Part shown: in pieces, positions 17,413 to 21,969 of the stretch
Numbering within the stretch: position 1 is the first letter of the stretch
Layout: each line of letters starts with the position of its first letter
NCBI RefSeq assembly: GCF_014695975.1
Contig: NZ_JACJPI010000081.1
Location: 248,001-312,000 of the forward strand
Origin: Leptolyngbya sp. FACHB-321
Lineage (GTDB): Bacteria > Cyanobacteriota > Cyanobacteriia > Leptolyngbyales > Leptolyngbyaceae
Length of the DNA: 64,000 nt
Direction: 5' to 3'
Program-made: the position numbers and the translations under genes
Notes under the pieces: model-generated
Databases searched by the model: none
What the model was told of the DNA's origin: nothing
Seen by the model: the letters and a program-made list of their open reading frames with translations, nothing else

Positions 17413-17820
17413 TTAAATGGGCAGCCGAAACCAACGATTCCAGGCATGGTGTAGGCGATCGCTAAACGTCGGTGTCATGCGTACAGATCCTTGCTCCTGC
17501 CATTTTTGTACCAGTTGGCGACCCAGCGGTGTGACTCGAAAACTGTCTGTTAACCCCTGTCCATCCACTTCTCGCCGTAGTAGACCAACCTGAATTAACC
17601 AGAGCAGCTCTGCCTCTGCAATTAGCTCAGAGAGAGGAGCCTGGGTGTAACCATGTTTCAGCCCAGCCTGCCCCGTGATTGCGTTTAACGAAACACTTTG
17701 CTGCACCATTGTGTTGTACAACGTGAGCTGAAAGGGCGCACATCGCATCGCTCGTTCTGCTCGCAACACGGTGCGATCGGGGTAATCAATTGTTTTGCGA
17801 GTGCTAGATGTGGCAGTCAT
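17413..17820 (-). CDS. Conserved cyanobacterial protein (Npun_F0494-like family)
   Basis: A 135-residue soluble protein. It has the pattern I associate with the Npun_F0494 family: RTVLRAERAMRCAPFQLTLY near residue 17, a central ITGQAGLKHGYT segment, then WLIQVGLLRREVDGQGLTDSFR with TPLGRQL. The middle and C-terminal parts could form a winged-helix-like fold, but I do not assign a function. It lies upstream of cobQ on the same strand, 143 bp away. Confidence 0.8.
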   Translation of the reverse strand: MTATSSTRKTIDYPDRTVLRAERAMRCAPFQLTLYNTMVQQSVSLNAITGQAGLKHGYTQAPLSELIAEAELLWLIQVGLLRREVDGQGLTDSFRVTPLGRQLVQKWQEQGSVRMTPTFSDRLHHAWNRWFRLPI

Positions 17821-18459
17821 CGCAGTTAAAGCTCCTTGCTGTTAAAAATCCAGGTAGGAGTAGGCGCATCCTAAAGTAAGCAAAGGTTTAACGGTTGCTT
17901 GCTGTCTCCATAGTATGCGTTTTATTTGCGTCCCGCATAGATATACAACTAGAGGTTGCTGTCTAACACAAGACCTGGCTGAACTTAATCAGTGAGAGTT
18001 CGGGGAGCGATCGAGGCAATTTAGTTACCTTTGATACATCTTTTCTTAATCTGCATTGCTAAAAGTAAGCTCATGGCTTTGCTATTGGCATTGAGCTTTC
18101 AGCAAGTGGCTCTGTGTTGACGCGATTGATGGGGGCATTAACTGACGGTTTTCTGAGTGAGCTGGAGTACTTAGAGCAACGGTTTAGTCAGGTAGCAAGT
18201 GATCAGGGGGCTAAACAATTTAACCGCCTCTAGGGTTCCAGTCTAAGCACCTCGCTTAGATGATCGGTCTGAGAGAGGCAAGCTGCTGAAAAGGCATCTT
18301 TTGATAAAAGTTGTCTGGTAGTTACACGGCGGGATCAAAGCCCGGGAGAAACAGGTAGCCAGGTGCAATGGCGACTGTACTTCTGGGCTTTTTGCTGATG
18401 TTGCCTTTTTTCTGGTCGAAAATAATTTGTCAATGGTTAGTTTTTCTGTAAGGAATGAA
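17821..18459. other. Long leader and promoter region of the ABC importer operon
   Basis: The first 400 bp hold the promoter of the operon by position and a 34-codon frame (18129-18233) without a ribosome binding site. The rest is the guanidine-I riboswitch and its terminator. No other gene is visible. Confidence 0.6.
18226..18393 (+). ncRNA. Guanidine-I (ykkC) riboswitch with terminator expression platform
   Basis: The two conserved ykkC elements are present in order. CTCTAGGGTTCC (from 18227 on) opens a helix closed by GCCTC (18226-18230) and GAGGC (18275-18279), with an internal hairpin TCTAAGC/GCTTAGA (242-248 with 254-260 of this kilobase) and GGTCTGAGAGAG before closure. About 50 bases later comes ACACGGCGGGATCAAAGC and then CCGGGAGA (18324-18349). 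Downstream, GGGCTT with T5 (18385-18393) can pair with AAGCCC inside the aptamer, giving a terminator that ligand binding would prevent: an ON switch. It lies 67 bp before the ABC importer genes. The sequence looks like the guanidine class rather than the ppGpp or PRPP subtypes, but subtype rests on few positions. Confidence 0.85.
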
Positions 18460-19509
18460 ATGAAGTTACGATCGCTGCTTTCTAATCTTGGACTTTTTCT
18501 CGTCAGCCTAGTGTTGATTGTGAGCTGTAGTAATCCTGCTAGCCAGATGTCTACCCAATCTGACAGCACGCCAGCACCATCAGGCAGTGCAGCGAGTATA
18601 CGTCTAGGCTTTAGCGCGTGGCCTGGTTGGTTTCCCTGGCAGGTGGCTCAAGACGAAAAAATTTTTGAGAAAAACAAAATAGCAGTTGATCTTAAATGGT
18701 TCGATGGCTATACAGAATCACTTAGCACCTTGACTGCTGGACAAATTGACGCGAACTCGCAAACGTTGAATGACACTATTAGCGCTGTCGCTGGTGGTGC
18801 TGATCAGGTTGTGGTTTTGGTGAATGACAACTCGACGGGCAACGACAAAATCATTGTGCGAGAAGGTATTAACTCGATCGCTGACTTAAAGGGCAAAAAA
18901 GTTGCGGCGGAAGAAGGCACGGTAGATCACTTCTTACTGCTTTTGGGGCTAAAGAAGGCAGGCTTGGGACCGAAGGATATTAACTTTCAACCACTGGAAA
19001 CAGGCAAAGCCGCCGCCGCTTTTGTTGCAGGGCAAGTTGATGCTGTTGGCGTTTTTGCACCCTTCACCACCCAGGCGCTTAAACGTCCTAACAGCAAAGA
19101 GCTGTTTAGCTCAAAGGACTTTCCAGGAGCGATTCCCGATCATCTTGTCTTTACCCGCCAATTTGTGAATACAAAGCCCGATCAGGTGCAGGCGCTAGTA
19201 GACTCCTGGTTTGAGACACAAGCCTATATCAAGGCAAATCCTGCTAAAGCGATCGAAATTATGGCGAAGCGAGGCGGGGTTTCTGTTGCTGAGTACAAGG
19301 AGTACGCAAACGGCACCAAGATTTTTACTGTTGAAGACAACTTAAAAGCGTTTCAGCCCGGTAAGGATATGGGTTCTCTTACCTTCGCAGCGCAAGAAAT
19401 GACTAATTTCCTCAATGAAGCTGGTTTGGTGACAACAAAGCCGGACTTGAGCAAACTGTTTGACGATCGCTTTGTCAAGGCATACGCCGCTAAAGCCAAG
19501 AAAGCCTGA
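18460..19509 (+). CDS. ABC importer substrate-binding lipoprotein (NMT1/SsuA/TauA type), probable guanidine-responsive
   Basis: A 349-residue lipoprotein: signal peptide with lipobox LIVSC (Cys about residue 23), Ser/Thr linker, then a periplasmic-binding domain of the nitrate/sulfonate/taurine type (IRLGFSAWPGW, GQIDANSQTLND, ADLKGKKVAAEEG). ATG 18460 with AAGGA just upstream is chosen over a TTG 11 codons earlier. It is the first gene after the guanidine-I riboswitch and is followed by its permease and ATPase. Family alone would suggest sulfonates, taurine or thiamine precursors; the riboswitch argues for guanidine or a related compound. Confidence 0.9.
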   Translation: MKLRSLLSNLGLFLVSLVLIVSCSNPASQMSTQSDSTPAPSGSAASIRLGFSAWPGWFPWQVAQDEKIFEKNKIAVDLKWFDGYTESLSTLTAGQIDANSQTLNDTISAVAGGADQVVVLVNDNSTGNDKIIVREGINSIADLKGKKVAAEEGTVDHFLLLLGLKKAGLGPKDINFQPLETGKAAAAFVAGQVDAVGVFAPFTTQALKRPNSKELFSSKDFPGAIPDHLVFTRQFVNTKPDQVQALVDSWFETQAYIKANPAKAIEIMAKRGGVSVAEYKEYANGTKIFTVEDNLKAFQPGKDMGSLTFAAQEMTNFLNEAGLVTTKPDLSKLFDDRFVKAYAAKAKKA

Positions 19510-19604: not shown

Positions 19605-20459
19605 ATGAGCCACCCCAGCACCCCGATCAACTCTGACCGCTCTAGCAGACCCGCAAAATCGCTGCGATCGACTGTTTTTTGGCGCTTGGCTGAAGACATT
19701 CCATCCTCCATGACCTGGAGCTTGATGACGGTTTCGATTCTGTTGCCACTGGTGCTGTGGTGGCTGGTAACTGCCTTTGGCGTGATCGATCCAAAGTTTT
19801 TGCCCTCTCCCGCAAATGTCATCGAAGCGTTTCAACGACTTTGGAGTACAGGCGATCTGCAAAAGGATACGGTCGCCAGTCTGTGGCGGGTTGGAGTTGG
19901 CTTTTCCCTGGCGGCACTCTTCTCCATTCCTCTTGGCGTGTTAATGGGCAGCTTTGCCAGCATTCGCGCTCTGTTGGAGCCTCTCTTTGGGTTGGTGCGT
20001 TACATGCCTGCACCAGCGTTCATTCCACTGCTGATTTTGTATCTAAGCATTGGTGAAGAGCCGAAGATCATGCTGATCTTTATTGGTGTCTTTTTCTTCA
20101 ACTCTCTCATGGTGATGGACACCGTGAAATTTGTGCCCAAAGAGTTGATCGAAGCCACGTATATGTTGGGCGGTAACCGCTTACAGACGCTGTTACAAGT
20201 GATTGCTCCCTACGTGTTACCGGGCATTATTGATGCTTGCCGAATCAACCTTGCAGCCGCGTGGCAGTTAGTGATTGTTTCTGAACTCATTGCGGCAACC
20301 GAGGGCATCGGTCGTCGTATTAGCGTAGCCGGTCGCTTTTTGAGAACAGATGAAATCTTTGTCGGGCTGATTGTCATTGGAGTCATCGGCTTGGTGCTGG
20401 ATTTGCTGTTTCAGTATGCACTTCGGGTTTCCTGTAGTTGGGCAAGCCAGAAGCGGTGA
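19605..20459 (+). CDS. ABC importer permease (SsuC/TauC type)
   Basis: A 284-residue inner-membrane protein with about six membrane segments. The EAA-like loop that contacts the ATPase is visible at about residues 180-200 (ELIEATYMLGGNRLQTLLQV), placing it in the nitrate/sulfonate/taurine permease family. It follows the binding protein by 95 bp and precedes the ATPase by 156 bp on the same strand. The spacer repeats show no terminator, so one operon under the guanidine-I riboswitch is likely. Confidence 0.92.
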   Translation: MSHPSTPINSDRSSRPAKSLRSTVFWRLAEDIPSSMTWSLMTVSILLPLVLWWLVTAFGVIDPKFLPSPANVIEAFQRLWSTGDLQKDTVASLWRVGVGFSLAALFSIPLGVLMGSFASIRALLEPLFGLVRYMPAPAFIPLLILYLSIGEEPKIMLIFIGVFFFNSLMVMDTVKFVPKELIEATYMLGGNRLQTLLQVIAPYVLPGIIDACRINLAAAWQLVIVSELIAATEGIGRRISVAGRFLRTDEIFVGLIVIGVIGLVLDLLFQYALRVSCSWASQKR

Positions 20460-20615: not shown

Positions 20616-21401
20616 ATGTACTTACAAGTCAACAGTCTGTATAAAAATTTTGAAACTAAACAGGGCACTTTGGTTGTGCTGAAAGATATTAATATGCTGA
20701 TCGAGCAGGGTGAGTTTATCTGTGCAGTCGGTGCATCAGGATCGGGTAAATCAACGCTGCTGCGACAAATTGCGGGATTGGACAAGCCCACTACAGGCGA
20801 AGTTAAAATCGACAACCAGATTGTCAAGGGACCAGGACCCGATCGCGGCATGGTGTTTCAGCACTATACGTTGTATCCATGGATGAATGTGCAAGAGAAT
20901 GCTGAGTTTGGGTTGAAGCTGCAAGGGCTGTCGAAAAAAGCGCGGCGAGAAAAAGCCAGCACTTATTTAGATGTTGTAGGGCTGTCAAAGTTTGCTAAAG
21001 CGTTGCCCAAGGAATTATCAGGTGGTATGAAGCAACGGGTGGCGATCGCCCGTGCGCTTGCCTCTGAACCAAAAGTATTGCTGATGGATGAACCCTTTGG
21101 CTCGCTTGATGTGCATACCAAAGAAGCCATGCACGAGTTTATGCTTGATCTCTGGCAGCGTACCCGCATTACCGTTTTTATGATTACTCACGATGTGGAA
21201 GAAGCGGTCTTCTTGTCGAACCGGATTTATGCGCTAGGGGCGCGTCCTGGTACGGTACGTAAGGAAATGGTGATTCAGTTGCCCGATCGCAGTCACGCGG
21301 TTAAACGCCACGCTGTTTTTCACGATTACCGGGATGAACTGATGGAACTGCTACGTAAGCATGGACAGGAAGCGGTGGAAGCGGTAGCAGTTGCCGTCTA
21401 G
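20616..21401 (+). CDS. ABC importer ATP-binding protein (SsuB/TauB type)
   Basis: A 261-residue ATPase with Walker A GASGSGKST (about residues 41-49), Q-loop, signature LSGGMKQR, Walker B VLLMDEPFG and the switch His in MITHDVEEA. It belongs to the nitrate/sulfonate/taurine importer group and energises the permease encoded just upstream. Last gene of the riboswitch-controlled operon; the next gene is a Nudix hydrolase 130 bp on. In Synechocystis-like genomes such importers sit next to guanidine hydrolase and its nickel chaperones; those genes are not adjacent here. Confidence 0.95.
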   Translation: MYLQVNSLYKNFETKQGTLVVLKDINMLIEQGEFICAVGASGSGKSTLLRQIAGLDKPTTGEVKIDNQIVKGPGPDRGMVFQHYTLYPWMNVQENAEFGLKLQGLSKKARREKASTYLDVVGLSKFAKALPKELSGGMKQRVAIARALASEPKVLLMDEPFGSLDVHTKEAMHEFMLDLWQRTRITVFMITHDVEEAVFLSNRIYALGARPGTVRKEMVIQLPDRSHAVKRHAVFHDYRDELMELLRKHGQEAVEAVAVAV

Positions 21402-21531
21402 CGATGGCACTTGGTAAGCGTCGGGCGCAGTAAAGGTTTTGGAAGAAACATAGAGGACACAGATGTAGTTTTTTGCGTCAAAATAGATTAAATTTCTCGC
21501 CACTATTGTTTTATCAGTGTCAAAAAAGCGC

Positions 21532-21969
21532 ATGGCTGATTCTACGATCGCGAAGGACGAAGCCTTTGGTATTGTCCCAATTCTGCATACCGATACGACC
21601 GATCAGTTTCTCCTCATTCAGCACCACGCCGGACATTGGGGCTTTCCCAAAGGGCACGCCGATCCGGGTGAATCGGCTTTGCAAGCAGCGTGCCGTGAAT
21701 TTCTAGAAGAGACGGGTATTGCAGACTACAGCCTGATTGATGGCGTATCGTTCTCCGAGCAGTATCCGTTCACACGCGGCAAGCAGAAGTTTGAGAAAAC
21801 GGTGATCTACTTTCTTGCCTGGGTGCAGTCGGCAACTGTCCACTGCCAGGAAAAAGAGATTCAGGCATACGTCTGGGCTGATTACGAGCAGGCGATCGCC
21901 CGGCTGAGCTTTGATGGCGCGAAGCAAGTGTTGCGAGAAGTCCAGCAGTATTTAAAGAGTGGTTCTTAA
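21532..21969 (+). CDS. Nudix hydrolase
   Basis: A 145-residue Nudix protein. The full Nudix box is visible: GHADPGESALQAACREFLEETGI, here given as GHADPGESAL followed by REFLEETGI, about residues 42-64. The N-terminus (FGIVPILH) and the WGFPKGH before the box resemble diadenosine tetraphosphate hydrolases, which cleave Ap4A-type or other nucleoside-diphosphate-linked compounds. ATG 21532 is preferred; GTG 21517 in the same frame is possible. It stands alone between the importer operon and a minus-strand gene. Confidence 0.88.
   Translation: MADSTIAKDEAFGIVPILHTDTTDQFLLIQHHAGHWGFPKGHADPGESALQAACREFLEETGIADYSLIDGVSFSEQYPFTRGKQKFEKTVIYFLAWVQSATVHCQEKEIQAYVWADYEQAIARLSFDGAKQVLREVQQYLKSGS

Follow-up and report, generated by a model that had tools for sequence, protein, structure and literature searches.

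The closest described counterpart of the locus analysed here is the operon of Synechocystis sp. PCC 6803, where the genes follow the order gdmH-ghaA-ghaB-importer, corresponding to sll1077-sll1082 in the available text of PMC8390497 and PMC10094980. Its importer consists of an SsuA_fam binding protein, a permease and an NrtD/SsuB-type ATPase and stands under a guanidine-I riboswitch (PMC8390497; PMC10094980; PMC12186494, each in the part available). The laboratory strain Synechococcus elongatus PCC 7942 is reported to have no homologue of the guanidine-degrading enzyme (PMC8390497). The carboxylase pathway of Pseudomonas syringae, Klebsiella and Raoultella comprises, in the accessible portions of PMC11410670 and PMC12186494, a guanidine carboxylase with diagnostic aspartates, the CgdA/CgdB pair, an importer and guanidine switches. 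The window, i.e., the whole stretch of 64,000 nucleotides (64 kb) of Leptolyngbya sp. FACHB-321 DNA that was analysed, carries an importer of the Synechocystis kind under a guanidine-I switch, a likeness to Sll1080-1082 that is one of gene families and operon order rather than of compared sequences. Unlike in Synechocystis, the importer is alone, no GdmH was found in the genome and the genes for breakdown are unlinked and belong to the carboxylase type. We conclude with considerable confidence that a guanidine-I riboswitch, acting as an ON switch by transcription termination, controls a three-gene guanidinium ABC importer in this window, and that breakdown would proceed via an unlinked carboxylase and a deiminase pair behind a second switch. 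The aptamer was identified by score, the terminator by folding and comparison and the proteins by gene family; from these, the gene content of the same genome and the linkage in relatives, we infer ligand binding, the direction and cargo of transport and the flux through the pathway. A guanidine-I switch in front of an ABC guanidine importer is a known arrangement, and the unlinked carboxylase-type breakdown genes are an instructive layout.

The guanidine-I aptamer is located at 18219-18350 on the forward strand, where cmscan aligns RF00442 over the full model (1-107) with 66.7 bits (gathering score 63) and an E-value of 1.2e-9. It is the sole Rfam match at gathering scores within the window, and a permissive Rfam scan of 18000-18600 to an E-value of 10 found no competing family except for one chance-level match on the opposite strand. 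The preliminary description had assigned positions 18226-18393 to a guanidine-I (ykkC) riboswitch and had proposed an Infernal search with RF00442; both the class and the coordinates proved right, the RF00442 match starting 7 bases earlier, inside the unpaired flank. Read from the letters, the closing helix P1 pairs GCCTCT at 18226-18231 with AGAGGC at 18274-18279. In the alignment, the GAGAG, ACACGG and GCCCGGGAGA segments agree with the RF00442 consensus, and the ACACGG...GGGA...GCCCGGGAG segment of the aptamer lies at 18324-18348 on the forward strand, while a few more capital positions near CUGGUCC deviate. The margin over the gathering score is just 3.7 bits, and the score is the fourth-lowest among 60 guanidine-I matches of the order; the second aptamer of the same genome reaches 76.3 bits. 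The RNA resembles RF00442 guanidine-I riboswitches in its full-length, over-threshold match, its conserved segments and an ON terminator that borrows the 3' end of the aptamer, and differs from them in one odd base of the P3 loop and a modest score. Judged by its sequence, the RNA is real and correctly classed as guanidine-I, and it would be expected to bind guanidine.

The intrinsic terminator is predicted at 18337-18393 on the forward strand. Its stem of 12 pairs joins AAAGCCCGGGAG (18337-18348), which is the 3' end of the aptamer, with CTTCTGGGCTTT (18380-18391), and is followed by a short T-run at 18389-18393, of which just two T extend beyond the stem. The hairpin has a folding energy of -29.5 kcal/mol and a z-score of -4.0, which none of 200 shuffles equalled. 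The leader as a whole folds with a z-score of -3.5, and in its minimum-energy fold the terminator hairpin replaces P3, as expected of the ligand-free OFF state. The same architecture is widespread in the order: 57 of 60 leaders contain, downstream of the aptamer, a pairing partner for its 3' end that is equalled by no more than 5 of 100 shuffles (1 of 100 for the window), the failing leaders being one each from G009, G025 and G004. Such a partner together with a T-rich tail is found in 39 of the 60 leaders, and a strict literal terminator pattern in 27, against 1.4% of shuffles; the window passes at both levels. A simple scanner reported no terminator at 17820-18460, although its loop limit of 3-8 cannot detect such a branched hairpin, and no sigma-70 promoter was found there by simple scanning. 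The folds and the comparison of 60 leaders support the earlier proposal of an ON switch whose terminator uses the aptamer 3' end. Without guanidine, the terminator would capture the 3' end of the aptamer and transcription would stop ahead of the lipoprotein gene. If guanidine is present, the aptamer would retain its P3 region, the terminator would be blocked and the importer would be made.

The odd base of the P3 loop is C18336 (18336-18336, forward strand). The loop reads ATCAAA in the window and mostly ANAAAA in the other aptamers, and among 125 distinct aptamers, obtained by merging the repeats of 141 records, 124 have A at this place and the window alone has C. The conserved third base of the loop is replaced in the window; this is a consensus position rather than an exclusion criterion from the literature. 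The substitution may leave the switch weaker or retuned, or it may reflect a sequencing error. Residues of the guanidine-I pocket are given in the available text of PMC6031431 and PMC11661666, and those listed in the accessible part of the latter apparently exclude the loop place of C18336. We regard it as unlikely that the window carries a weakened switch, in which the changed P3 loop lowers guanidine sensing and the importer is mostly off or otherwise controlled. This reading draws on the single C against 124 distinct aptamers with A and on the fourth-lowest score of the order, but the locus retains its pocket segments, terminator and three open genes, 66.7 bits still exceeds the curated cut-off and the loop place seems to lie outside the pocket residues of PMC11661666, as far as its available text goes. 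That the window RNA is instead a ppGpp or PRPP riboswitch (ykkC subtype 2) we consider next to inconceivable. The ykkC scaffold is common to both, and the base that separates guanidine-I from ppGpp/PRPP aptamers is A46, which is replaced by a pyrimidine in subtypes 2a and 2b in the part of PMC6031431 that is available. The window reads GGTCTGAGAGAGG and has both A of GAGAG, the segment expected to hold the marker, and the genes that accompany relatives of this locus belong to guanidine metabolism and not to purine or amino acid synthesis. The subtype was rejected for its wrong marker base and the lack of a rival Rfam match, a comparison that reaches as far as the content of Rfam and the published marker base. 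Returning to guanidine-I as the preferred class, the two switches of this genome, which are unlike in the P3 loop, form a natural pair for testing the effect of the loop on sensitivity.

Behind the switch, three genes of the SsuA/TauA superfamily follow on the forward strand, in agreement with the SsuABC/TauABC-like importer described earlier. The first encodes a substrate-binding lipoprotein of 349 aa (18460-19509), with a LIVSC lipobox, read by eye, in its signal peptide and 250.3 bits to TIGR01728 (SsuA_fam; cut-off 163.5). The second encodes an ABC permease of 284 aa (19605-20459; PF00528), which is TauC/SaoP/SsuC-like by NCBIfam but under the equivalog cut-offs, and the third an ABC ATPase of 261 aa (20616-21401; PF00005), whose nearest NCBIfam models are SaoA/TauB/NrtCD-like, again under the cut-offs. 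A NUDIX hydrolase gene (21517-21969, forward strand; PF00293) may be a read-through cistron behind the importer and was kept outside the counted unit. Among 80 named loci (the best 80 of 233 relatives of the binding protein, with homologues 66-85% identical), seven have a NUDIX gene downstream of the importer genes or among them, and in L160 and L176 it is placed between the permease and ATPase genes.

The binding protein passes the broad SsuA_fam model only. It falls under the specific cut-offs for SsuA (89.8 versus 299) and TauA (72.3 versus 304), and its top specific model is TIGR03427, named 'putative urea ABC transporter substrate-binding protein', at 163.8 versus a cut-off of 333.9; this model, which describes a 'uca' binding protein of the carboxylase type, beats the SsuA and TauA models yet stays below its own cut-off. 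The predicted fold (model pLDDT 83.5) is that of SsuA and TauA, with Z of about 30, and the closest solved folds, SsuA, TauA, CmpA and NrtA, bind anions. Compared with the alkanesulfonate- and taurine-binding proteins SsuA and TauA, the window protein is alike in fold and domain family and differs by an identity of 23-26% to the E. coli proteins in structural alignment and by an acidic, tryptophan-rich conserved set. Within five genomes of the same genus it is 85-87% identical. W54, W57, W60, D82, D105, D123, D129, E151, E152, D156 and D227 are identical in all 88 binding proteins compared. In 14 divergent homologues (26-34% identical) from fetched riboswitch loci, W54, D123, D129, E151 and D227 are retained in all and D105 in 13. 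E. coli SsuA, in contrast, aligns Q with E151, K with E152, S with D156 and P with D105 and D123. Such an acidic, tryptophan-rich set would be appropriate for binding a flat cation, the candidate pocket residues being drawn from alignment, and common descent may account for part of the acidic residues that the two importer classes share.

The case for the cargo comes mainly from gene neighborhoods. In 36 of the 80 named loci (best 80 of 233), GdmH, HypA or HypB genes lie immediately upstream of the importer, which is the Synechocystis operon order in whole or in part; GdmH itself is visible in 32 of these, and the other four start or break nearby. In another 32 loci, the first feature upstream of the binding protein is a guanidine-I switch. 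As read from the table, 20 of these contain cgdA, cgdB or carboxylase genes within the stretch, which are often divergent and have a switch of their own; two have GdmH and ten have neither, several of the last lying on short contigs. The remaining named loci among the best 80 of 233 comprise six others, five at a contig edge and one in which the gene picker failed. These counts include L156 as switch-led, although its switch lies solely on the opposite strand and faces a divergent cgdA; L097, in which the switch is followed by a small frame and then the binding protein, is among the others; and L100 is a hydrolase locus in which a second switch precedes the binding protein. The two surveys are not independent, since the genome survey (G handles) includes the contigs of at least 11 of the 80 named loci. 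The ORF picker of the first locus survey dropped genes lying under longer overlapping frames, and its counts are lower bounds; in G009:C141 and G025, which it showed as gaps, the binding protein and GdmH are found 77 and about 110 bases, respectively, behind the switches. Binding proteins of GdmH-HypA-HypB loci behind guanidine-I are 66-83% identical to that of the window, the 83% being L100. In a quick tree of 88 binding proteins, the contexts are clustered without forming single clades (26 changes, against a shuffled mean of 40.6); when only hydrolase- and carboxylase-linked rows are considered, 6 changes are needed.

The importer thus accompanies two distinct routes for the breakdown of free guanidine, which is our strongest argument that guanidine is the likely cargo, a reading of both direction and cargo based on linkage in many relatives, residues and model scores. 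The earlier preference for guanidine over sulfonates gains from this linkage and from the 'uca' model, which outscores the SsuA and TauA models from below its own cut-off. A sulfonate, taurine or nitrate importer placed behind a guanidine switch by chance would account for SsuA_fam being the sole cut-off passed and for SsuA and TauA being the best folds. It would leave unexplained the repeated linkage to GdmH or carboxylase-route genes, the low specific scores for SsuA and taurine relative to the higher 'uca' score and the acidic residues where the aligned loop of SsuA has Q, K and S, and we consider it very improbable. Somewhat less remote, though still distinctly improbable, is an importer for a guanidine derivative, such as methylguanidine or creatinine, with the switch sensing guanidine freed from it. 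Creatininase-like, metallo-hydrolase-like and type III glutamine synthetase genes are found in related operons of another importer class, which makes substrates beyond free guanidine plausible in the wider family; beside the importer class of the window, however, the enzymes recognised among neighbors, not all of which could be named, are those of free-guanidine breakdown. With free guanidine as the preferred cargo, the most likely role of the pump is guanidine uptake for use as a nitrogen source.

The second importer class, whose binding protein is about 30% identical to that of the window, occurs in the guanidine-I loci L052, L057, L068, L071 and L096 and may import guanidine derivatives. 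It is positioned after GdmH in L068 and L071. L071 and L052 each contain a type III glutamine synthetase gene that exceeds its cut-off, L071 also has creatininase-like and metallo-hydrolase-like genes under their cut-offs, and L096 has a biuret hydrolase-like gene, likewise under its cut-off. At L074:2461-5443, a guanidine-I switch precedes genes for a binding protein, an unnamed protein of 333 aa and a creatininase (369.9 versus 235 bits), and at G025:C1:3215019-3217364 two adjacent binding-protein genes (78 and 74% identical to that of the window) lie behind GdmH.

The same genome contains two guanidine-I switches, and the second, on another contig, precedes two genes that exceed the UAAP1 and UAAP2 cut-offs (TIGR03425, 299.2 versus 205.95; TIGR03424, 343.2 versus 284.7). 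By family match, this pair is taken as the putative subunits CgdA and CgdB of carboxyguanidine deiminase. The carboxylase gene lies on a third contig, has no switch and encodes 1198 aa (1908 bits). Guanidine carboxylase is told from urea carboxylase by Asp at the positions of K. lactis 1330 and 1584 (PMC11410670, in the part available), and in the alignment N1330 corresponds to D698 and D1584 to the aspartate of GLGD, so that the protein has both aspartates of guanidine carboxylase. A search with a GdmH query of 395 aa at an E-value of 1e-60, which finds GdmH in 11 of 42 genomes, found none in this genome (G000, 97% complete) or in the other six genomes of the genus. The preliminary description had regarded the operon as split, with the guanidine hydrolase and nickel chaperone genes missing from the locus; the split stands, given the importer, deiminase-like pair and carboxylase on three contigs, while a hydrolase merely located elsewhere does not, as no GdmH was found.

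A nickel hydrolase route in this genome was considered and rejected: its single arginase-family gene passes the agmatinase model TIGR01230 with 299.8 bits, has no guanidine-I match nearby and is not matched by GdmH, the query of which itself barely reaches the TIGR01230 cut-off (174.5 versus 174.3). A canonical allophanate hydrolase was not found in the genome either, the best TIGR02713 match scoring 230 bits versus 511; the gene behind this match is GatA (685.5 versus 481.1) and was discarded as a candidate. The allophanate hydrolase of a relative gave partial matches only, at 28-45% identity. On contig C71 of this genome (L045:7047-9150), an AtzE-family amidase is encoded next to a separate gene for an allophanate-hydrolase C-domain, and a 68% relative of the C-domain gene lies directly behind the carboxylase in G006; the amidase and the C-domain gene are tentatively the best candidates for a substitute. 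We propose that imported guanidine would be carboxylated by the unlinked guanidine carboxylase and that the product would be deiminated by the CgdA/CgdB-like pair under the second riboswitch on another contig, with allophanate hydrolysis as the last step performed, tentatively, by the AtzE-type amidase. Compared with the pathway of P. syringae, Klebsiella and Raoultella, the genes here are dispersed over three contigs, the carboxylase is without a riboswitch and no canonical allophanate hydrolase was found; in view of the last two, the pathway may be incomplete.

Across 42 genomes, the order has 60 guanidine-I matches in 34, 59 over the gathering score and one below it (62.3 bits, G008). At strict E-values, these family genomes include 11 with GdmH, 22 with the carboxylase, 21 with CgdB and 25 with an importer of the window type. 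GdmH and the carboxylase occur together in none of the 42, for which the chance would be 4e-5 if the two were independent and relatedness were ignored. The window-type importer is found with GdmH in eight genomes, with the carboxylase in 14 and with neither in three, and it is absent from eight carboxylase genomes and three GdmH genomes; at least some of the genomes that lack it carry the divergent importer class behind a switch. All 33 genomes with GdmH or the carboxylase have a guanidine-I switch, as does one further genome (69% complete) with neither enzyme. These results suggest that the hydrolase and carboxylase routes exclude each other and yet share the importer. In the genus of the window, the carboxylase and CgdB are on different contigs in all six genomes with both, and the scattering of the genes appears to characterise the lineage, the draft state of the assemblies being a caution.

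A wider picture is possible and is offered tentatively: the importer may be an exchangeable front end, with its own or a borrowed switch, that has repeatedly been joined to either of two exclusive routes, while in the Stenomitos group, which includes the present cyanobacterium, the regulon would be scattered, with uptake and deimination switched by guanidine, the ATP-consuming carboxylase off the switch and C18336 perhaps setting a threshold different from that of the deiminase switch. If the guanidine reading holds, the 'aliphatic sulfonate' importer of many cyanobacteria would be renamed a guanidine importer, and the named invariant residues would be assigned to a probable guanidinium pocket. 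The import of free guanidine is relevant to the nitrogen cycle and to cyanobacteria engineered to produce guanidine or ethylene.

Upstream of many switches there is also a motif, GTAN8TAC, which we take to be the consensus of an NtcA-type site. It occurs within 300 bases upstream of 69 of 123 distinct switches, against a shuffled mean of 10.2; with repeats unmerged, it occurs at 72 of 139 switches, against a shuffled mean of 12.2 and 100 of 2448 random windows (4%) of the same loci. Within 300 bases upstream of the two switches of the present genome the motif is missing, and it plays no part in our reading of the window. Many cyanobacteria may combine control by nitrogen status with control by guanidine, and in the genus of the window the motif precedes just three of 15 switches, those of G034:C114, G036:C10 and G039:C541.
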